DNA of 64,000 nucleotides, taken from the NCBI GenBank assembly GCA_021828865.1, contig JAJZCW010000006.1:1-64000 (forward strand), read 5' to 3'. The stretch's first letter is position 1. Each line of letters begins with the position of its first letter. The notes beneath the pieces are model-generated. The model saw nothing but the letters and a program-made list of their open reading frames with translations, was not told the origin of the DNA and ran no database searches. Below are positions 28,534 to 57,600 of this stretch, in pieces. Source of the DNA: Bacillota bacterium (lineage in GTDB: Bacteria; Bacillota; Bacilli; Alicyclobacillales; SLC66). Position numbers and translations under genes: made by a program.

Positions 28534-29796
28534 GTGTACCTAACACAGAGTAACCAGATCAAAGGACTCAACAAAGTGGAATACGAAGCCTTGCGCGAAA
28601 TGTGCAGGTACGCGAAAAATCTCTATAACGTGGGTTTGTATTCGATTCGTCAATACTTCTTTGCAGAAGGTCGTTACCTTCGCTACGAATCGAACTACCA
28701 AGCGGTAAAGGATAGCGAGAATTACGCCTTGCTTCAAGCAGGTGTGAGCCAGCAAATTCTCAAGGTAGTAGACCGTTCATTCCGCTCGTTCTTTAACCTA
28801 CTGAAAAAGGCGAAGAGTGGCGAGTATCGCTATCATGATGTGCGGATTCCGCACTACCTTGATAAGAATGACTACTTTCCTCTCATCTTGTCTATCAACG
28901 CTATTGTCATCAAGGATGGCTATTTACAAGTGCCCATGTCGCGCGAGTTTCAACGGTTGCATCCTGACTTAAAACGGATAAGAATTCCTTTCCCTTCTCG
29001 GTTGGAAGAGAAAACGATCAAAGAAGTTCGTATATTGCCTGTTGAGAAAGCGCGATTCTTCAAAATTCAGTTCGTCTACGAAGCGTCAGAAGAACCACAA
29101 CCTACTCTGTCGCCAGACAAGGCGCTTGCGATTGATCTTGGTTTGGATAACCTCGCTACTTGCGTTCGTAGTATTGATGGGTCGTCGTTCATCATCGACG
29201 GAAAGAAACTAAAATCCATTAACCATCAATACAACGTGAGAATGGCAACGTTGCAATCCGTCATAGATCAACAAAAGTTACCTCGGTCTGAGCAAATGGC
29301 AAGGATTACGATGAACCGTAACAATCAAGTCCACGACTACATGATGAAGTCAGCACGATACATTGTGAATTACTGCCTGAATCATGAGATTGGCACTATT
29401 GTCATCGGGTACAATCCTGAATGGAAACGTGACTCGAACATGGGCAAGAGAAACAATCAGAACTTTGTCCAGATTCCACATGGTCAACTTCACAACCAAC
29501 TCGAAAACCTATGTGAGCGTTACGGCATTAAGCATGTGGAGCAGGAAGAAAGCTACACGTCGAAAGCCAGTTTCCTAGATGGCGATGCAATCCCCGTCTG
29601 GAACGGCACTCATCAAGAAGTCACGTTTAGCGGTAAACGTGTGAAACGCGGGCTATATCGCGCCAGTAATGGCGAAATATTAAATGCTGACGCAAATGGT
29701 GCTGTGAATATTCTACGTAAAAGTAACCATAGACTCGATTTTGAGCGAGTGGCTAGGGGGCTTTTGGCAAACCCTTTGCGAGTAAAGCTGATCTAA
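28534..29796 (+). CDS. tnpB: TnpB family RNA-guided nuclease (IS605 OrfB)
   Basis: A complete 420-residue TnpB. RuvC-like motifs are present: AIDLGLDNLAT (first Asp), IGTIVIGYNPEWKRD (Glu) and ILNADANGAVNILRK (last Asp). The usual CxxC...CxxC zinc finger between the second and third motifs is absent; that stretch reads ESYTSKASFLDGDAIP, as in a known subgroup of this family. TnpB cuts DNA next to a target-adjacent motif, guided by an omega RNA made from the 3' end of the gene and the element's right end. GTG 28534 follows GAAGGAGAA. Confidence 0.92.
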   Translation: MYLTQSNQIKGLNKVEYEALREMCRYAKNLYNVGLYSIRQYFFAEGRYLRYESNYQAVKDSENYALLQAGVSQQILKVVDRSFRSFFNLLKKAKSGEYRYHDVRIPHYLDKNDYFPLILSINAIVIKDGYLQVPMSREFQRLHPDLKRIRIPFPSRLEEKTIKEVRILPVEKARFFKIQFVYEASEEPQPTLSPDKALAIDLGLDNLATCVRSIDGSSFIIDGKKLKSINHQYNVRMATLQSVIDQQKLPRSEQMARITMNRNNQVHDYMMKSARYIVNYCLNHEIGTIVIGYNPEWKRDSNMGKRNNQNFVQIPHGQLHNQLENLCERYGIKHVEQEESYTSKASFLDGDAIPVWNGTHQEVTFSGKRVKRGLYRASNGEILNADANGAVNILRKSNHRLDFERVARGLLANPLRVKLI

Positions 29797-33323: not shown

Positions 33324-35663
33324 ATGAAATCCATACGAACCAAGATTATGGCAGGGTTTATGGGCATTCTGGTGATTGCCCTGATCGTTATCGGTGTGCT
33401 GATTACTACCTCGATTCATGACGCAGTAGCTTCGAAAGTATCTCAAGTTACCACAGTTTCTATTATTGGTATTATATTAATAATTGTTTTAAGTGTTATC
33501 ATAGGATGGTTGATTGCAAGTCAAATTGTAAAGCCATTGAAAAATATGATTAAGATAGCGGAAAATTTATCATTGGGCGATTTGGATGTAGCGATAAATG
33601 TAAGCAGTAATGATGAAATTGGCCATTTGTCCCAAGCATTAAATACAATGAAAGAATCAATCAAGGGTCAAGCACTTACCGCACAACGTATCGCTGCTGG
33701 AGATATGCAAACGGATATTCATGTGCTTTCGGATAAAGACATATTGGGACAAAGTTTGAAAAATGTGGTGGGGACTTTGCAGGCGTTGTTCCAAGAAATG
33801 ACTGTCTTGATCCAGGCCACTCGTGAAGGAAAATTAGATACCCGAGGTAATGCGTCCACTTATCAAGGTGACTGGGCGAAATTGGTGGGTGGCGTGAACG
33901 AAATGATCGACGCATTTGTGGGCCCGATCAACGTGACGGCTGAGTATGTGGACCGGATCAGCAAAGGCGACATACCGCCTAGAATAACCGATGTGTACCT
34001 AGGCGACTTCAACGAGATCAAGAACAACCTGAACGCATGCATCGATATTATGAACGGACTGCTCACTGAAACCAATGGACTGATCAAGGCGACGAAGGAA
34101 GGCAAGCTCGACACGCGCGGCAACGCTGCAGCTTTTGCTGGTGGTTGGGGTCAACTGGTAGGCGGCGTGAACGAAATGATCGACGCATTTGTGGGCCCGA
34201 TCAACGTGACGGCTGAGTATGTGGACCGGATCAGCAAAGGCGATATACCACCTAGAATAACCGATGTGTACCTAGGCGACTTCAACGAGATCAAGAACAA
34301 CCTGAACGCATGCATCGATATTATGAACGGACTCTTGACCGAAACCAATGGACTGATCATGGCCTCGAAGGAAGGCAAACTCAGCACCCGCGGCAACGCC
34401 GCAGCTTTTGCTGGCGGCTGGGGCCAACTGGTAGGAGGCGTGAACGAGATGATCGACGCCATTATCGAGCCGGTGATGGAAGCAGCAGCAGTGCTGGATG
34501 AAATGGCGAAGGGCAATTTGCAAACAAGCGTGAAAGGTAATTATCAGGGCGACCATGCTAAAATAAAAAATGCATTGAATGACACCATTGAAACACTTTC
34601 GACCTATGTGAGGGAAATTTCCGTCACGTTGAACGAGATGGCCAAAGGGAACTTGAGGCTTGCGATCACACGAGAATATCGCGGTGACTTTGCTAGCATC
34701 AAGTCATCGCTCAACGAGATCATCCGTTCTTTAAACAACGTGTTGAATGATATTCACAACACGGCAACGCAAGTGGCATTAGGATCAAGACAGGTTTCGG
34801 ATTCTGCACAGGCATTGTCTCAGGGCTCAACGGAGCAGGCCAGTTCAGTGGAACAGTTGACCGCATCCATGGAAGAAATCTCTGCGCAAACTAAACAAAA
34901 TTCACTTAGTGCCAATCAAGCCAGTGAAATAGCGTTATCCGCAAAAAATGGCGCAATTGAAGGCAACAAACAAATGAAAGAAATGCTTGGCGCGATGCAG
35001 CAAATCAATGAGGCTTCAAGCAATATCTCTAAAATTATCAAAGTGATTGATGAGATTGCATTCCAGACCAATATTTTGGCGCTGAATGCAGCGGTTGAAG
35101 CAGCAAGGGCCGGTCAGCACGGTAAAGGATTTGCGGTTGTCGCTGAAGAAGTGAGAAATCTTGCGGCCAGAAGTGCCAATGCTGCAAAAGAAACCACGGT
35201 ATTGATTGAAAGTTCCATTAAGAAAGTGGAAGATGGTTCAAAGATTGCTGAAGATACAGCTAGCGCACTGAATACGATCGTGGATAGTGTTAGTACTGCC
35301 ACCAATCTGGTTGGTGAAATTGCTAAGGCGTCTAATGAACAAGCGCTTGGAATTGCGCAAGTTAATCAGGGGATCATTCAGGTTTCACAAGTCGTACAAA
35401 TGAATTCAGCGACTTCTGAAGAAAGCGCGGCTGCTAGTGAAGAACTTTCCAGCCAAGCTGAAATCCTTAAAGAGATGGTGGGGAGATTCCAACTAAAGCA
35501 AGCAGACTCCTCGAACCGGAGCAAGGATGAACTTTCTCCAGAGATTCTTGAAATGATTGAGAACATGAAGACTTCAAGAAGTCAGTCTGAAAGATCGAGT
35601 GCAGTACCGCTAGGCGTTGCGAAAGATTTTGTCGCAGCCAGTAGCGATTTTGGAAAGTATTGA
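33324..35663 (+). CDS. Methyl-accepting chemotaxis protein with tandem HAMP-type array
   Basis: A 779-residue receptor. Two N-terminal helices (about 8-30 and 44-65) are separated by a dozen residues, so there is no extracellular sensor. A HAMP domain (about 65-120) is followed by a series of HAMP-like repeats up to about 470. Three units with a 91-residue spacing share [11 protein letters not shown], and two carry the identical block [21 protein letters not shown] standard signalling domain follows with [27 protein letters not shown] precedes the ATG. Chains of HAMP units usually transmit signals to the cytoplasmic tip; the input here is unknown. Confidence 0.93.
33829..34446 (+). repeat. 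Tandem 273-bp repeats inside the MCP gene
   Basis: Copies of a 273-bp unit follow in register: the GGCGTGAACG element ends at 33900, 34173 and 34446. The stretch from the first to the second copy is nearly identical in DNA to that from the second to the third, apart from a few, mostly silent, changes. The first copy differs upstream of 33890. This suggests recent duplication or gene conversion. Confidence 0.9.
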
Positions 35664-50420: not shown

Positions 50421-50591
50421 ACCTGACTTTCATGGTTGCTGACTATATTATTTAAAAAACATGCGGGGTATACATAGGTTGACAATTTTATAGCATCATT
50501 CTACCATAAAATTCGTGCCATTAAATCTATGAATATATGCGAATTTATGTGTTATTATATTCAAAAATTCAAATATACGGAGGTGAAGGAC

Positions 50592-50906
50592 GTGATCGAT
50601 TTTAAGGCAGAGCTTTTTAAGTCGATGGGCCATCCTACTCGGTTGCGCATTTTAGAACTGCTTCGTACCGGCGAAATGACGGTGAGTGAACTGCAACAAA
50701 ACCTTGAGATCGACGCTTCCTCAGTGTCTCAACAACTTTCATTGATGCGCACGCGGCAGTTGGTCAATGCAAGGAAGCAGGGGACAAACGTATATTACAA
50801 AGTTAGGGATCCTTTAATCTTCGAAATGATGGATATTGCGCGGGAGATATTCCAAAATCATGTCGAAAGCATGCAATCCATGCTGGACGATGAAGAATCG
50901 AAGTAA
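50592..50906 (+). CDS. ArsR family winged-helix regulator
   Basis: A 104-residue regulator: KSMGHPTRLRILELLRTGEMTVSELQQNLEIDASSVSQQLSLMRTRQLVNARKQG is a typical ArsR helix-turn-helix and wing. It contains no cysteine, so a thiol-based metal or persulfide sensor of the classic type is unlikely. GTG 50592 follows GGAGGTGA; the longer frame from 50529 has no site. It lies 40 bases upstream of the first gene of the Ehr-type cluster on the same strand and is the obvious candidate regulator for it. Confidence 0.88.
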   Translation: MIDFKAELFKSMGHPTRLRILELLRTGEMTVSELQQNLEIDASSVSQQLSLMRTRQLVNARKQGTNVYYKVRDPLIFEMMDIAREIFQNHVESMQSMLDDEESK

Positions 50907-50946: not shown

Positions 50947-52833
50947 TTGTTAATCATCATTCTTGTTGCAATCGGTATCGGGATTTCCCTTTTAGCGGCA
51001 AAGCCAAAGACTTCGAAACGATTGACACTCATATTCAGTGCAATACTGGTGATGGTCGCCATCTTGGCGTTATGGATGCCTCGCAGTTTGGCGGTGAATG
51101 GCCCTTATTTTGAGTTGAATCCTTTGCGTGATTGGTTTTTGCTGATTCTTGGAATCGTGTCCACTGCCGCAACGTGGTTCCGATTTGGCTATCTACAACA
51201 TGATGAGCAGGCGACCTCTTTTTGGTTGCCGCTTTTTTTAGTGAGCATGCTTGGCGTGATCAGCGCGAATGATGTGTGGCTGTTTATGACGGCATGGGAA
51301 TTGATGAGCATCACTTCCTTCTTCCTCGTCATTGTGCATCATGATCGGCCTGGTGTTTTGAATGCAGGATATATCTACCTTGTCATGTCACAGCTCAGTG
51401 CCATGCTGATATTGTCAGGGCTTCTCTTGATGGCGACATCGTTGCATTCAACGAGTTTTGCCGTTTTTGCAGCGAGTGCCCACATGCTGGCTCCGGGAAT
51501 CAAGGACTTTGTATTTGCGCTACTCGGGCTTGGATTTGCGATAAAAAGCGGCATAGTGCCCTTTCATATTTGGTTGCCGCGCGCACATCCCATTGCTCCT
51601 GCTCCAGTCTCGGGGCTCATGTCTGGTGCGATGATCAAGCTTGGTGTGTTTGGCGTCACCCAATTTCTCCTGATGGATCTTGGCAAAACCAGCGTGATAT
51701 GGCCGTTTTTGCTGCTGGTGTTTGGAGCTGTTTCGAGTTTGCTTGGCGTGCTGTACGCGTTGATGGAGCACGATTTGAAGCGTCTACTGGCGTTTCACAG
51801 TATCGAAAATATAGGTATCATTTTTCTGGGGCTGGGAGTCATGGGGCTTGGCATCGATTGGCATCGTCCTCTCCTCGAGGCAATGGGCATGATCGCCGCA
51901 TTATTTCACACGATGAATCATGCGATTTTTAAGAGCCAATTGTTTCTGGTCGCGGGAGCGGTGGAACAACATACCGGCACGCTGGATGCAGACCGTCTGG
52001 GAGGACTGATTCGCACCATTCCGGGCATCACCATCGGATTTTTAGCGGGGTCCATGGCGATTAGCGCATTGCCGCCATTTAATGGGTTTGTCAGCGAATG
52101 GATCACTTTTCGGGGATTGCTGAATGTGGTCAGCGGATCCTTGGGATGGTGGACGGTATTTGGACTCGTGTTGGTACTGGTGTTGGCCATGACAGGAGCG
52201 CTTGCAGGCATGTGCTTTGTCAAGGCATCTGGCGTTATTTTTCTTGGTGAACCGCGTGAACCAGTGAGTCATACGCGGCTTCCCCGCAGTATGACATGGC
52301 CGATTATGATGATGGCACTACTTTGTCTCGTGCTTGGCATAGATCCCTATTTGGCCATCCGAGCGATCACTTCCATTCAACCGGGGCTAATCCTCAACGA
52401 ATCGCCGCAGCTGGTCCCTGTGCATGCGATGCAGACTGGATTTCTCCTTCTCCTCCTTATCATTGTGGTTGGGTGGTTGTCCCGTTTTTGGAAAGTGCGC
52501 AAAGTGCCTCGATGGAGTTGTGGACGGGTGCCTGACGCCACCATGCAATTCACTTCTGCCTCCTTTACCAAGTCAGTGAGGACTACGCTTGCCGTAATCT
52601 ATCGACCGCATAGGAACCTTGATCGAATTGGCACCTATGCCAACTATTTTCCCGAACGATTGCTTTATAAGGGGGGGACAAGCCCCATTTGGGAACGGTA
52701 TCTTTATCAACCGGGCTATCGCCTGGTTTGGCGGCTATCCCAATACAGCACAAAACTTCAAGCGGGACCCGTTAGGCTGTACTTATTGTATCTGCTAGGT
52801 ACCATCGGCATCCTGCTTCTGTTATTACACTGA
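50947..52833 (+). CDS. hyfB: Proton-translocating subunit, HyfB/NuoL-like
   Basis: A 628-residue membrane protein with about 15 helices. ANDVWLFMTAWELMSITSFFLV, the KSGIVPFHIWLPRAHPIAPAPVSGLMSG segment, LKRLLAFHSIENIGII and NHAIFKSQLFLVAGA are the quinone-antiporter family motifs with their key Glu, Lys and His residues. It resembles HyfB/HycC of hydrogenases 3 and 4. The C-terminal part (about 510-600) resembles the HycC extension. It starts with TTG after AGAAGGG. It should be one of two antiporter-like subunits that move protons or sodium. Confidence 0.9.
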   Translation: MLIIILVAIGIGISLLAAKPKTSKRLTLIFSAILVMVAILALWMPRSLAVNGPYFELNPLRDWFLLILGIVSTAATWFRFGYLQHDEQATSFWLPLFLVSMLGVISANDVWLFMTAWELMSITSFFLVIVHHDRPGVLNAGYIYLVMSQLSAMLILSGLLLMATSLHSTSFAVFAASAHMLAPGIKDFVFALLGLGFAIKSGIVPFHIWLPRAHPIAPAPVSGLMSGAMIKLGVFGVTQFLLMDLGKTSVIWPFLLLVFGAVSSLLGVLYALMEHDLKRLLAFHSIENIGIIFLGLGVMGLGIDWHRPLLEAMGMIAALFHTMNHAIFKSQLFLVAGAVEQHTGTLDADRLGGLIRTIPGITIGFLAGSMAISALPPFNGFVSEWITFRGLLNVVSGSLGWWTVFGLVLVLVLAMTGALAGMCFVKASGVIFLGEPREPVSHTRLPRSMTWPIMMMALLCLVLGIDPYLAIRAITSIQPGLILNESPQLVPVHAMQTGFLLLLLIIVVGWLSRFWKVRKVPRWSCGRVPDATMQFTSASFTKSVRTTLAVIYRPHRNLDRIGTYANYFPERLLYKGGTSPIWERYLYQPGYRLVWRLSQYSTKLQAGPVRLYLLYLLGTIGILLLLLH

Positions 52834-52852
52834 GAGGGGGTTGGTACAGAAC

Positions 52853-53770
52853 GTGGAATTATGGGGAGTTCAAATTATCGGCGTGCTTCTGGCTATCCTG
52901 CTATCACCATTTTATGTAGGAATTGCGCAAACCGTCAAAGCAAGAATGCAGGGACGACGTGGCCCTTCTCTCTGGCTTGGTTATTATGTGCTCAAAAAAT
53001 TATGGGGAAAGGAAACCACGGCGCCTGAGTACAGCTCCTGGATCTTCCAAGTAGCGCCTACCGTCAGTCTCAGTGCGTTGACAGTTATTGCCCTATTTAT
53101 TCCGTGGGGGGGGCGAGTCCCTGCGTCATGGCCGCATGATGCGCTGACTGTATTTTTCCTCTTGGCGCTGGAGCGGTTTTGGGTGGGGTTGGCGGGACTG
53201 GATGCCGCAGGGACCTTTGGGGGACTGGGAGCCAGCCGGATTGCCACACTAGGAAGCGGGATTGAACCTGCCATGTTCGCGGTTTTTGGCCTGTTGTGGT
53301 ACCTGACTGGCGGAACGGTGATCACCCCCATCATGCCTCAATGGTGGGCTCATCCATTACACATGCTTCCCTGGGGGCTAGCGGTATTGGGGTATGCGCT
53401 CGTAGCGATCGCGGAATTGGGCAGGTTGCCTGCGGACAATCCTGATACCCACTTGGAATTGACGATGATGCATGAAGCCACAATCTTGGAGTATAACGGC
53501 CGTTTGCTTGCGCAGTCCCAGGCCGCGGTGGCGATCAAATTCACCTCGATCATCGCGTTGGGGTGGGTGTGGCTCGGTCCAAACCTTGCCTCACCTTGGC
53601 TGAATCTGTTGTTGCGACTGATCGAACTTACTTTATCGAGTATGTTTTTAGGCGTAATCGAAAGCCTGGTCGTCAAATTGAGGTATTTTCGCTTGTCCAC
53701 CTACTTGGGAATTGCGATGGGAATGGGAATGCTGGCCGTTTACCTAGTGGCGTTCCAGGGAGGGAAGTAA
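52853..53770 (+). CDS. hyfC: Membrane subunit, HyfC/HycD (NuoH-like)
   Basis: About 305 residues with roughly eight helices. FYVGIAQTVKARMQGRRGPS at the N-terminus and VAIAELGRLPADNPDTHLELTMMHEATILEYNG are the NuoH/HycD motifs; this subunit links the hydrophilic module to the membrane arm. GTG 52853 is chosen because the frame's first codon, TTG at 52841, directly abuts the AGGGGG site; its spacing of 12 is long. The stop is immediately followed by the next ATG. Confidence 0.9.
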   Translation: MELWGVQIIGVLLAILLSPFYVGIAQTVKARMQGRRGPSLWLGYYVLKKLWGKETTAPEYSSWIFQVAPTVSLSALTVIALFIPWGGRVPASWPHDALTVFFLLALERFWVGLAGLDAAGTFGGLGASRIATLGSGIEPAMFAVFGLLWYLTGGTVITPIMPQWWAHPLHMLPWGLAVLGYALVAIAELGRLPADNPDTHLELTMMHEATILEYNGRLLAQSQAAVAIKFTSIIALGWVWLGPNLASPWLNLLLRLIELTLSSMFLGVIESLVVKLRYFRLSTYLGIAMGMGMLAVYLVAFQGGK

Positions 53771-54394
53771 ATGGGGATCACTGCGTTGATCGTTTTTATC
53801 GCTTCGATGGGAATGTTGCTGGTTCGCAATGTGACGCACACGGTGTGGCTATTAGCGGTCGAGGGGGTAGCGCTTAGTGTGATGGTTTTTCTGTCTAGGC
53901 CCATCACACTCGAGCAAACGGTAATTGGTCTGGTCACGATCTTCATCAAAGCAGGGGTGATTCCCTTTACGATGAATCGCGTCACGCTAACATGGCCGCA
54001 AGCGTATCGCACTGATCGTCCATTGCCATGGTGGGGATATCTCGCGGGCATTGCACTCGTGTTGTCCGTGACGCACATCATTCACCTCTTGTCTCCTGTG
54101 GGTATCATCCATCATCGGGACTTGTTTTTTTACGGATTAGCCAGTATTTATCTTGGACTATTGCAAATGATCAGCCGCAGGCATGTGCTGTCCCAGGTAG
54201 GGTCCCTGATCGCGGTAGAAAATGCACTTGTCATTCTGGCAGCATCAGTGGCAGGGCAACTCCCCATGTTTATGGAATTTGGCATGTTGATCGATTTGCT
54301 AGTTGCGGTCGTAATTCTTTCATGGATCAGCCGGCTCGTGCATCACCAATTCAATACGACAGATGTCACGGTGATGCGGTTTTTAAGGAGGTGA
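53771..54394 (+). CDS. hyfE: Membrane subunit, HyfE-like (NuoK-related)
   Basis: A 207-residue membrane protein with about six helices. The N-terminal half is NuoK-like and the C-terminal LIAVENALVILAASVAGQLPMFMEFGMLIDLLVAV segment has the intramembrane Glu residues of HyfE. HyfE is specific to group-4 hydrogenase-type complexes and their relatives, which helps separate this cluster from ordinary complex I. ATG follows GGAGGGAAG. Confidence 0.88.
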   Translation: MGITALIVFIASMGMLLVRNVTHTVWLLAVEGVALSVMVFLSRPITLEQTVIGLVTIFIKAGVIPFTMNRVTLTWPQAYRTDRPLPWWGYLAGIALVLSVTHIIHLLSPVGIIHHRDLFFYGLASIYLGLLQMISRRHVLSQVGSLIAVENALVILAASVAGQLPMFMEFGMLIDLLVAVVILSWISRLVHHQFNTTDVTVMRFLRR

Positions 54395-54398
54395 TCAC

Positions 54399-55721
54399 GT
54401 GGTCATTCTTGCAGGCTTAGGGCCAATCGGCGTGATGGCGTTGGTAGTGGCGGGCAACCGTCTGATGCCAAAATGGTTACCTATCATGATTGCGGTCTGG
54501 GTTACCATAGTATGGATAGCAACGGGATTATATTTTTATCATGATATTACTCATGGCAAATGGTACATGTGGTTACTCCTGTTAGTGGATTTGATAGCGG
54601 CAGGAAGCGCCTGGGACAGCATCTGGTGGATTCGCGAACATCAAACAATCAAAAGGCTACGCTATTACGTATGGTGGGCGTTTTTTTGGTTAGCGCTGAT
54701 CATTATTGCGACCGCAGGCAACCTGGTGCTCGCCTGGCTTGCCATTGAGTTTTCTACGCTTGCCTCAGGTGCTCTGATCGTGGAAATGGGCCATCGGCGT
54801 GCGCTGGAAGCAGCCTGGAAATACATTGTGGTCGCCTCTGTTGGAATGTTGATGGCGATTATCGGCATTGTCTTTTTGTATGCTAGTCTCCAATTTGAAC
54901 ATATGGGATGGAACACGCTGGATTATAGCAATCTGCATGCGCATTACCTTGCCATTTCGCCAATCGTGCGCAAAATGGCGACTATTTTGATTGTCTGCGG
55001 GATCGGAACCAAAGCGGGATTAGTACCTTTTCATACCTGGCTTCCGGATGCCCATTCTGTCGCGCCATCTCCGGTCAGTGGTCTTCTATCCGGGATTTTG
55101 CTGGGAGTAAGCCTTGTCACGATCCAACATTTTGTTGCTGCTGTTCCGCTTTCGAGTCATGTTTTCTTGTCAGGGCAACACCTGCTTCTTCTTTTCGGGA
55201 TATTGTCAGTTGTAGTGGGCACCCTAGCACTTTTGGTGCAAAAAGATATTAAGCGAATGCTTGCCTATTCATCCATTGAACAAGTGGGCATCATGGCCAT
55301 CGGCTTTGGCATTGGCACACCTTTTGCGCAGGAAGCGGTCATTTGGCAACTGGTCTTTCATGCGATCATCAAGTCGGGATTGTTTTATATTAGCGGGCAC
55401 TTATCCGTGCGCTATCACAGCATCCACTTACCGCAAATGTCGAACATGTTTCAGCGTCACCGTGGGCTTGCCGTGACTTGGGCCACTTTCATCATAGCGC
55501 TAGCAGGATTACCTCCTCTGGGGCTTGCTTATAGTGAATGGATGATTTTATACGGGTTATGGAGCAGTCATCTGTGGGTGATTTTGGCGTTGTTAAGCTT
55601 GTCGCTCATTTTGGGATTTGCGGCGCTGATGCATCACCTGCTTGGCGGGATGTGGGGCAGAACGAATCAGCCAGAAGACCTTGTAGGAATTGCCGTGACT
55701 GGAGGTGTGAGCCATGAATGA
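54399..55721 (+). CDS. hyfF: Second proton-translocating subunit, HyfF-like (NuoM/N family)
   Basis: A 440-residue membrane protein. LAWLAIEFSTLASGALIVEMGHR, the KAGLVPFHTWLPDAHSVAPSPVSGLLSG segment, IKRMLAYSSIEQVGIMAIG and FHAIIKSGLFYISGH are antiporter-like motifs. It matches HyfF, the extra NuoM/N-like subunit of hydrogenase-4-type complexes. GTG follows AAGGAGGTGATCA, an excellent ribosome site. It overlaps the next gene by eight bases. Confidence 0.88.
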   Translation: MVILAGLGPIGVMALVVAGNRLMPKWLPIMIAVWVTIVWIATGLYFYHDITHGKWYMWLLLLVDLIAAGSAWDSIWWIREHQTIKRLRYYVWWAFFWLALIIIATAGNLVLAWLAIEFSTLASGALIVEMGHRRALEAAWKYIVVASVGMLMAIIGIVFLYASLQFEHMGWNTLDYSNLHAHYLAISPIVRKMATILIVCGIGTKAGLVPFHTWLPDAHSVAPSPVSGLLSGILLGVSLVTIQHFVAAVPLSSHVFLSGQHLLLLFGILSVVVGTLALLVQKDIKRMLAYSSIEQVGIMAIGFGIGTPFAQEAVIWQLVFHAIIKSGLFYISGHLSVRYHSIHLPQMSNMFQRHRGLAVTWATFIIALAGLPPLGLAYSEWMILYGLWSSHLWVILALLSLSLILGFAALMHHLLGGMWGRTNQPEDLVGIAVTGGVSHE

Positions 55722-57177
55722 GGCGACTCAGGCAGAGGAAATTCGCGACAATTGGATTCAAGATAATATTTCCCGCAAAAATGCGGGAGACGTGTTGTTG
55801 GCACTGACTGGTTACCGAGACAATCAGATTAAAACCCATTGGCTTAGCGCGGATGGGAAAATGAAAGCAGTAACTACGACTTGTGTGGACGCCCAATTTG
55901 CTTCACTCTCCCCCAGTATGCCTGAGGTGGCGTGGGATGAGCGCGAAATCCATGATTTATTTGGCTATCAGCCTGTTGGGCATCCAGATCTGCGACCACT
56001 TGTCAGGACGCCAAGGTGGCCTGATACGTTTTTTCCTTTGCAAAAGAGGTCTGATGACTTTGCTCAATGGAATGACGTTGAACCAGATAACCCTGCCAAA
56101 GTGGTCGAGGGAGAAGGGATCACCATCATGAAGGTGGGGCCCACTCATGCAGGAATTATTGAATCAGGCCACTTTGTGTTCAGCATTATTGGCGAAAATA
56201 TTTTACATTTGGATGCTCACTTGTTTCAAAATCACCGAGGAGTGGAGAAGGCGCTGGAATCGTTACCCATTCAAGAGGCGAAGCCACTTATCTCGCGCAT
56301 ATGTGGTGCCGATACTGTATCACACCAATATAATTTTCTATCAGCAATGGAGAATCTAGCGGGGCGAAGGGTTCCTGAATCGGTTGAATGGCAGCGGATT
56401 ATTTTGCTTGAATCAGAGCGTATCCTCAGTCACCTGAATGATCTCGCACAGATTCCCGCCGGAGTCGGATTTACAGTCGCACACCAGCGCGGATTAGCTA
56501 TGAAAGAGTCGTGGCAAAAGGGGCTCGCGGCGATTTTTGGGCACCGGTTTTTATTTGATGCGATGTACCAGGAAAAGATGATGGCGAGCAAAAAGGAACA
56601 ACTACAGCAGCTATTGGTATCGCTTGAAACCATGTGGATGAAGTGGCGTAAGCTCGTGAGCCGTCAGCAAGGATTTCATGATCGGATGCACGGCGTGGGA
56701 GTGGTTAAGCGCGAAGATGCGGAGCAGTTGGGAGCCGTTGGGGTGGCACTGAGGGCTACCGGAGTTAGCGTGGATATGCGCACGATTATGCCGCTCTACC
56801 GGCATAATCGAATCCACATTCCACAGGTGACTGGTGGCGATGTGGAGGCTCGTTTTCAGGTCCGACTGCAGGAAGTGGAACATTCGTTTGCGCTAATCCG
56901 GAATGCGCTCGAACACCTTCAGGGAAAGAATCAGGAAGCGTCATGGCGCATTCCGGATGATTTGACGGGGGAAGTGGTCAGTTACTCTGAGTCACCGCAT
57001 GGGTTGAATGTTCATGTGGTGCAGATGAAAAACGGGGTAATTGAGCGCTATCATGTGAGGTCAGGCGCTTATCGCAATTGGCCTGTGCTGGCTCTAGCCG
57101 TGGCAGGGAATGCGGTGGCAGATTTTCCGCTAATCAATAAAAGTTTCGAACTTTGCTATAGTTGTGCGGATCGCTGA
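55714..57177 (+). CDS. hyfG: Hydrogenase-like large subunit, HyfG/HycE family (NuoC-NuoD fusion), incomplete Ni site
   Basis: A 487-residue soluble subunit. The NuoC-like N-terminus has WDEREIHDLFGYQPVGHPDLRPL; the NuoD/HycE part starts with VGPTHAGIIESGHF. Of the four cysteines that hold nickel and iron in [NiFe] hydrogenases, Cys197 (RICGADTVSH) and Cys481 and Cys484 (ELCYSCADR) are present, but the fourth, in the position of the second Cys of the CGIC motif, is Asp200. The protein ends right after the C-terminal CxxC, as if already processed, and has no cleavable tail. It is probably not a standard hydrogenase. ATG follows GGAGGTGAG. Confidence 0.9.
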   Translation: MNEATQAEEIRDNWIQDNISRKNAGDVLLALTGYRDNQIKTHWLSADGKMKAVTTTCVDAQFASLSPSMPEVAWDEREIHDLFGYQPVGHPDLRPLVRTPRWPDTFFPLQKRSDDFAQWNDVEPDNPAKVVEGEGITIMKVGPTHAGIIESGHFVFSIIGENILHLDAHLFQNHRGVEKALESLPIQEAKPLISRICGADTVSHQYNFLSAMENLAGRRVPESVEWQRIILLESERILSHLNDLAQIPAGVGFTVAHQRGLAMKESWQKGLAAIFGHRFLFDAMYQEKMMASKKEQLQQLLVSLETMWMKWRKLVSRQQGFHDRMHGVGVVKREDAEQLGAVGVALRATGVSVDMRTIMPLYRHNRIHIPQVTGGDVEARFQVRLQEVEHSFALIRNALEHLQGKNQEASWRIPDDLTGEVVSYSESPHGLNVHVVQMKNGVIERYHVRSGAYRNWPVLALAVAGNAVADFPLINKSFELCYSCADR

Positions 57178-57198
57178 GTACAATTGGGGTGATTATTA

Positions 57199-57600
57199 AT
57201 GAATCAACGTAAAAAATCATTGCAGTTGCGGCATGTAGATGCCGGTAGTTGCAACGCTTGTGAACAGGAGTTGACTGCGCTCCTCAGTAAAGACCTTGAT
57301 ATCCAGCATTATGGCATCGACGTGGTGGCATCGCCGCGACATGCGGATGCGCTGGTCGTGACAGGACCTGTGACTGATACCATGCAACCGGCGTTAAAAA
57401 AGGTGTGGGATGCAGTACCGAAGCCTCGACAACTTATTGCCGTTGGAGATTGCGCTGCGGGGTGCGGCGTGTTTCAGAATGCTTATGCCAGTCATGGCGG
57501 GGTGGAATCAGCGCTTAAAAAGCCTGATCTAACGATTCGGGGCTGTCCTCCAGATCCTGCGAAGATACTCGATATGCTCCGGGAAATGATGCAAAACTGA
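57199..57600 (+). CDS. hyfI: Hydrogenase-like small subunit, HyfI/NuoB family
   Basis: A 133-residue protein. Cys18 and Cys21 (AGSCNACEQEL), Cys85 (GDCAAGCGVF) and Cys116 (IRGCPPDP) are the four ligands of the proximal [4Fe-4S] cluster of the NuoB/HycG family. It should carry electrons to the large subunit. No NuoI/HyfH-type ferredoxin subunit is found anywhere in the cluster. It is the last gene of the run; 99 bases separate it from the rhodanese gene. Confidence 0.9.
   Translation: MNQRKKSLQLRHVDAGSCNACEQELTALLSKDLDIQHYGIDVVASPRHADALVVTGPVTDTMQPALKKVWDAVPKPRQLIAVGDCAAGCGVFQNAYASHGGVESALKKPDLTIRGCPPDPAKILDMLREMMQN

Follow-up and report, generated by a model that had tools for sequence, protein, structure and literature searches.

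Gene content of the locus

The window, as we call the whole stretch of 64,000 nucleotides analyzed here, contains six intact ORFs on the plus strand, HyfB-C-E-F-G-I (50947-57600), which overlap or are separated by no more than 21 nt (Table 1). The family profiles agreed with the hyfB-hyfC-hyfE-hyfF-hyfG-hyfI run that an earlier note on this DNA had described. The HyfE-like subunit matched its model under the curated cut-off, and its position and sequence were kept across related loci. Relatives were collected by a search of named genomes (16 loci, in which the order was kept as far as the contigs extend), and five were added later. Every complete related locus contained the identical six genes in the same order, and therefore the cluster is not a chance arrangement. 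The six-gene locus is a genuine relative of respiratory complex I and of the hydrogenases.

Table 1. Features of the six-gene locus and its upstream region
Feature	Position	Strand	Evidence
AT-rich leader with TTCAAATA	50529..50591	+	shared 8-mer
ArsR-family regulator gene	50592..50906	+	HTH_metalloreg profile, above cut-off
HyfB/EhrA-like antiporter-type membrane subunit, 628 aa	50947..52833	+	profile match, 509 bits (HyfB-like)
HyfC/NuoH-like membrane subunit, 309 aa	52841..53770	+	NADHdh/NuoH profile, E=2e-24
HyfE-like membrane subunit, 207 aa	53771..54394	+	PRK11492, E=1e-11
HyfF-like antiporter-type membrane subunit, 440 aa	54399..55721	+	profile match; Glu/Lys/Glu kept
HyfG-like large subunit, NuoCD fusion (30-kDa + 49-kDa), 487 aa	55714..57177	+	profile match
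L1 motif C197-x-x-D200 of HyfG (CxxC in hydrogenases)	56302..56313	+	invariant in 22/22 clade sequences
H429 of ESPHG in HyfG, at the place of the catalytic Arg of hydrogenases (APRG)	56998..57000	+	invariant in 22/22
L2 motif C481-x-x-C484 of HyfG (ELCYSC), kept	57154..57165	+	invariant in 22/22
HyfI/NuoB-like small subunit, 133 aa	57199..57600	+	profile match; no fused ferredoxin domain

The residues expected in the membrane arm and in the small subunit were examined by alignment. HyfB retained the equivalents of NuoL E144, K229, and H338, with a Glu at the K399 position, and HyfC retained the acidic residues aligned with NuoH E157, D213, E216(D), E220, and E228. The Glu/Lys/Glu set of an ion-translocating arm was conserved in both antiporter-like subunits, HyfB and HyfF, for which ion transport is predicted. 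HyfI carried four conserved Cys residues (CxxC..C..C), the ligands for one predicted [4Fe-4S] cluster. Hallmark motifs had been reported as intact throughout; this was confirmed for HyfI, HyfB, HyfF, and most acidic residues of HyfC, but the large subunit has CxxD in place of CxxC and His in place of Arg.

The closest solved relative of HyfG was HycE (7z0s, E=7e-54), which came before Mbh and complex I, and HycE was also the best fold match (TM 0.77). HyfG ends exactly at CADR and lacks a C-terminal maturation extension. The AlphaFold model of HyfG had a mean pLDDT of 75, and residues 119-173 and 465-487, which include part of the pocket, scored below 50; we therefore make no claim about pocket geometry.

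Elsewhere in the window, a chemoreceptor-like protein (33324-35663) contained near-identical tandem blocks, and an IS200/IS605-type TnpB/OrfB-like protein of 420 aa (28534-29796) had, by eye, no obvious TnpA next to it.

The upstream ArsR gene and its leader

An ArsR gene lies immediately 5' of hyfB in every clade locus for which upstream DNA is available, and no other neighbour was conserved among the clade loci compared. Its true start is likely the GTG at 50592 and not the ATG at 50529, since GGAGG stands just 5' of this GTG and the conserved ArsR protein core begins there. The listed ArsR ORF thus begins 63 nt too early, and the GTG start frees an AT-rich, operator-like leader. The 8-mer TTCAAATA recurred 5' of the ArsR gene at 6 of the 12 clade loci compared, a count that the best shared 8-mer reached in none of 200 shuffles. 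It is possible that this 8-mer is a putative operator half-site through which ArsR might regulate its own gene.

The nickel pocket of the large subunit

The sequences that share the window's signature form a clade of 22, from Alicyclobacillaceae, Sulfobacillus, and MAGs of Actinomycetes and Acidimicrobiia. The first nickel motif of HyfG is RICGADTVSH, and throughout the clade the pocket positions read E150, C197, D200, H429, C481, and C484, with the E150 gate kept. All 22 sequences showed C..D/H/CxxC, against CxxC/R/CxxC in hydrogenases, and this set was perfectly conserved while overall identity fell to 53%. The reading E C C R C C was found in hydrogenases and in a broad set of Bacillota relatives (four-Cys relatives below). 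Canonical Ehr complexes (energy-converting hydrogenase-related; Burkholderia, Rhodococcus, Azospirillum, Methylovirgula, and others) had lost all four Cys and kept the Arg. Invariance of the motif in 22 sequences from two phyla argues that the pocket is under selection. The new observation is that the nickel pocket of this clade was remodelled and not erased: three Cys are kept, one nickel ligand has changed to Asp, and the catalytic Arg has changed to His, both without exception.

Group 4 [NiFe] hydrogenases have four Cys nickel ligands, and HyfG has Asp at position 200. Complex I has a NuoI subunit with two [4Fe-4S] clusters and a quinone site in which His38 and Tyr87 of Thermus thermophilus Nqo4 bind the head group; these residues align with Ile149 and Gly198 of HyfG, which gives no support for a quinone site of the canonical kind, and a NuoI subunit is missing at the locus (see below). 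The incomplete nickel-ligand set and the six-subunit architecture bear out the assignment to an Ehr-type complex, and the clade complex is almost certainly no hydrogenase.

Ferredoxin subunits and electron input

No ORF resembling NuoI, HyfH, or HyfA was found beside the cluster in the window, and a CxxCxxCxxxC motif test detected no ferredoxin domain, fused to HyfI or adjacent, in any of 19 clade loci. HyfI is minimal in the clade (133-170 aa), and no gene for an electron donor was linked to the cluster in any member. In contrast, a CxxCxxCxxxC ferredoxin domain was fused to the N-terminus of HyfI in many four-Cys relatives and Bacillota relatives without the Cys; the fused domain occurred in most of L069-L082, L133, L136-L139, and L143-L152. 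A separate NuoI-like ORF adjoined the complex in six relatives (L128, L130-L132, L134, L135). By the same motif test, the nearest sister lineages (L065, L066, L075) and the proteobacterial Ehr had no ferredoxin domain, and the plasmid-borne Ehr of Burkholderia, Rhodococcus, and Methylovirgula likewise lack a separate ferredoxin subunit. The missing ferredoxin subunit emphasized in the earlier note is thus real at this locus, but the lack of a separate one is ordinary for six-gene Ehr complexes (PMC6688271).

Hyp maturation genes

HypD and HypE are required to make the NiFe(CN)2CO cofactor. HypD was present in 4 of the 22 distinct genomes with the clade complex (the window's own, G327, G400/G465, and G430) and absent from the other 18, including the closed genome of Alicyclobacillus mengziensis (L014 = G408/G466). 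Many of the HypD-negative hosts are MAGs, in which gaps may explain some absences, but not 18 of 22. HypE, searched at its curated cut-off, gave the same answer as HypD in the 14 of 22 genomes covered. The window itself contains no hyp genes, as had been claimed, but its genome carries hypA, B, D, E, and F, a maturation protease, and a NiCoT permease in one cluster on another contig. A full hyp set was among the findings that the earlier note had named as refuting its reading, and nominally it is present; however, it adjoins the large and small subunits of a separate group-1-like [NiFe] hydrogenase (G000:C29, L020, L021).

The four-Cys relatives gave an unexpected result. All 12 that were sampled from the window's family or order were in genomes without HypD or HypE (G417-G419, G424-G426, G429, G439, G444, G458, G463, and G469; loci L121-L132), ten of which are at least 90% complete, G458 being one closed contig. 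G124 and G361 likewise lack both genes. The four Cys in these genomes are therefore not explained by the NiFe(CN)2CO cofactor. The 12 relatives also keep the Arg in the large subunit. Several of L121-L132 carry QxCG in place of RxCG, together with an additional Cys (CYACCDR). Whether a genome has Hyp genes did not predict, in either direction, whether the hydrogenase motif is intact.

Phylogeny of the large subunit

We built a tree of the large subunit without the pocket columns. The window's clade was monophyletic (100/100) on a long branch, with L065, L066, and L075 as its nearest sister lineages and canonical Ehr outside; it was nested among the four-Cys relatives (96/84), a placement for which the stem length of 2.06 makes long-branch effects a caveat. 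Monophyly and nesting were the same in a second, larger tree. The AU test rejected a single clade of the window's sequences and canonical Ehr (P = 0.0048). The tree, which the earlier note had suggested as a check, thus placed the clade with group-4-like sequences, but not in one group with canonical Ehr that lack the Cys. Nesting in the four-Cys group and the AU rejection together indicate that the nickel site was most likely lost independently, at least twice. Because of the AU result, Ehr defined by motif loss are not one clade, and membership of the window's complex in Ehr rests on definition and architecture and not on common descent of the motif loss.

Neighbourhood and distribution

A sulfur-linked redox partner had been proposed because sulfur-carrier genes lie nearby, but the neighbourhood was not conserved. 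The CymR-CysH-Sat genes upstream were common only to the window and its congener L005, and downstream of HyfI a sugar-nucleotide-transferase-like gene in L005 replaces the rhodanese/DsrE/TusA set of the window. No other clade member had adjacent sulfur genes; the remaining loci had unrelated neighbours, and those of the Actinomycete copies (gene clusters c6 and c8-c13) were common to those genomes alone. A sulfur linkage based on conserved neighbourhood was therefore rejected.

The clade is rare. It was found in 3 of 4 genomes of the window's own genus and in few of its family and order; wider sampling added one further genome among 398 of the phylum, and 296 Actinomycetota genomes yielded no member besides the starting genome. 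Members in different phyla are about 55% identical, and the record names of some hosts point to acid mines or other acidic environments. The identity across phyla suggests that the clade was spread by transfer, and the record names suggest that this took place among acid-habitat bacteria. The window's genome, a 94%-complete assembly, yielded a single match each for NuoD and NuoH. The idea that it lacks complex I was not upheld; a genome of the same genus (G415/G398) has NuoD, and an assembly gap is possible.

Comparison with known complexes

As defined in published descriptions, Ehr complexes have a group-4-hydrogenase-like large subunit without the complete nickel-ligand set and six subunits, four of them in the membrane and including antiporter-like ones. 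The clade complex has an incomplete set of nickel ligands, a large subunit, a small subunit, and four membrane subunits. Six-gene Ehr complexes have been described as ehrABCDLS (PMC6688271), and the window's complex is thus of a type already known. Like it, canonical EhrABCDLS (Proteobacteria, Methylacidiphilum, Nitrospira, AOA) have six genes, no separate ferredoxin subunit, and no C-terminal extension, and are not hydrogenases; unlike it, those sampled have no nickel-ligand Cys, keep the Arg, and form a separate branch.

Six-gene 'group 4' complexes that lack NiFe motifs and whose function is unknown were reported as Ehr from Sulfobacillus, including AMDSBA3 (Justice et al. 2014, PMC4378227). 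AMDSBA3 is the source of our locus L009, of the same clade and gene set, with a HyfG 56% identical to that of the window. On the motifs, that paper noted only their absence, whereas our alignment showed that three of four Cys are retained, along with the invariant Asp and His. Rv0081-Rv0087 of Mycobacterium tuberculosis, a regulator and hyc set also called EHR or 'formate hydrogenlyase', has been placed among Ehr (PMC6728331, PMC6901956). As in the window, an ArsR-type regulator stands beside six Ehr genes and no [NiFe] maturation genes are present; by listed gene order, however, the NuoB-like gene comes first in M. tuberculosis. The plasmid Ehr of Rhodococcus has the M. tuberculosis gene order and has lost all four Cys.

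The four-Cys Bacillota relatives are group-4-like complexes of six or seven genes with the same subunits and with Hyp in some only, but they differ from the window's complex in their intact CxxC/R/CxxC and in the fused or adjacent ferredoxin or NuoI-like protein that many of them have. The E. coli formate hydrogenlyase (HycE/Hyf), closest to HyfG among solved systems, differs in that it has HyfA/HyfH, reads CxxC/R/CxxC, carries a C-terminal extension of 32 residues, and comes with hyp genes. One Actinomycete genome (G405) encodes two more Ehr-like large subunits, L136 (G405:C2) and L156 (G405:C1), whose degraded nickel motifs differ (ESGRTG and EESQSG).

Interpretation of the complex

We propose, with a probability of roughly 0.4, that the locus encodes an ArsR-controlled membrane Ehr complex that has a Cys3Asp pocket, is independent of Hyp and no hydrogenase, and works as a redox-driven ion pump. 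A soluble low-potential donor such as ferredoxin would dock directly on HyfI, at the place of NuoI, and reduce its [4Fe-4S] cluster. From this cluster, electrons could reach a Hyp-independent centre held by Cys3Asp, which would be either a mononuclear metal or an Fe-S cluster with Asp as a ligand. They would then reduce an acceptor, most likely menaquinone, in the HyfG/HyfC pocket, and the reaction would drive ion translocation through HyfC, HyfE, HyfB, and HyfF. Ligation of a [4Fe-4S] cluster by Cys3Asp through CxxD is known from the ferredoxin of Pyrococcus furiosus. More tentatively, and with some doubt, we suggest that the [NiFe] pocket was refitted without Hyp to hold mononuclear Fe or Zn or a Cys3Asp [4Fe-4S] cluster, of which the Hyp-less four-Cys relatives of the same order would carry a Cys4 version.

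Other explanations were weighed against the same data. The complex might be a minimal complex I that reduces menaquinone, with the HyfI cluster as its sole redox centre and the leftover Cys as structural relics. Its core is the same as the Q- and P-modules of complex I, and Cys-free canonical Ehr persist in many bacteria; however, relics would not be expected to stay perfectly conserved at identities down to 53%, and the quinone-ligand residues are missing, which makes this explanation unlikely. An improbable alternative is a non-redox device, an antiporter-like ion pump or a pH-homeostasis system whose soluble arm is regulatory or carries out non-redox catalysis at Zn(Cys/Asp/His). The intact antiporter residues, the acid habitats in some host records, and the pH role proposed for Methylacidiphilum Ehr (PMC6688271) fit such a device, but all four Fe-S Cys of HyfI are conserved, and electron transfer is therefore implied.

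A sulfane reductase resembling Mbs, with a sulfur-linked redox partner, would account for the genes flanking the cluster in the window. We consider it very improbable in view of their absence from other clade loci apart from the upstream set in L005; moreover, Sat and CysH are assimilatory and stand beside a CymR-like regulator, and HyfG is nearer to HycE than to MbsL. Three of four nickel ligands, the E150 gate, and the hyp genes, nickel permease, and maturation protease elsewhere in the genome could still be read as a [NiFe] hydrogenase with Asp as a ligand, but His occupies the catalytic Arg position, most hosts with the same signature have no HypD, and the Hyp set is accompanied by its own hydrogenase, so that this reading is likewise very improbable.

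If the pocket does hold a different centre in the proposed Hyp-independent complex, the hydrogenase scaffold would have been switched to another cofactor at least once. Hosts of Ehr complexes include M. tuberculosis as well as nitrifiers and acidophiles, and the papers cited here call the function of these complexes unknown. The clade shows that Cys are kept even where the NiFe cofactor cannot be made. A. mengziensis S30H14, a named strain whose closed genome has neither HypD nor HypE, is suited to functional tests, and the defined pocket of C197, D200, H429, C481, and C484 offers a handle on what the widespread Ehr complexes do.
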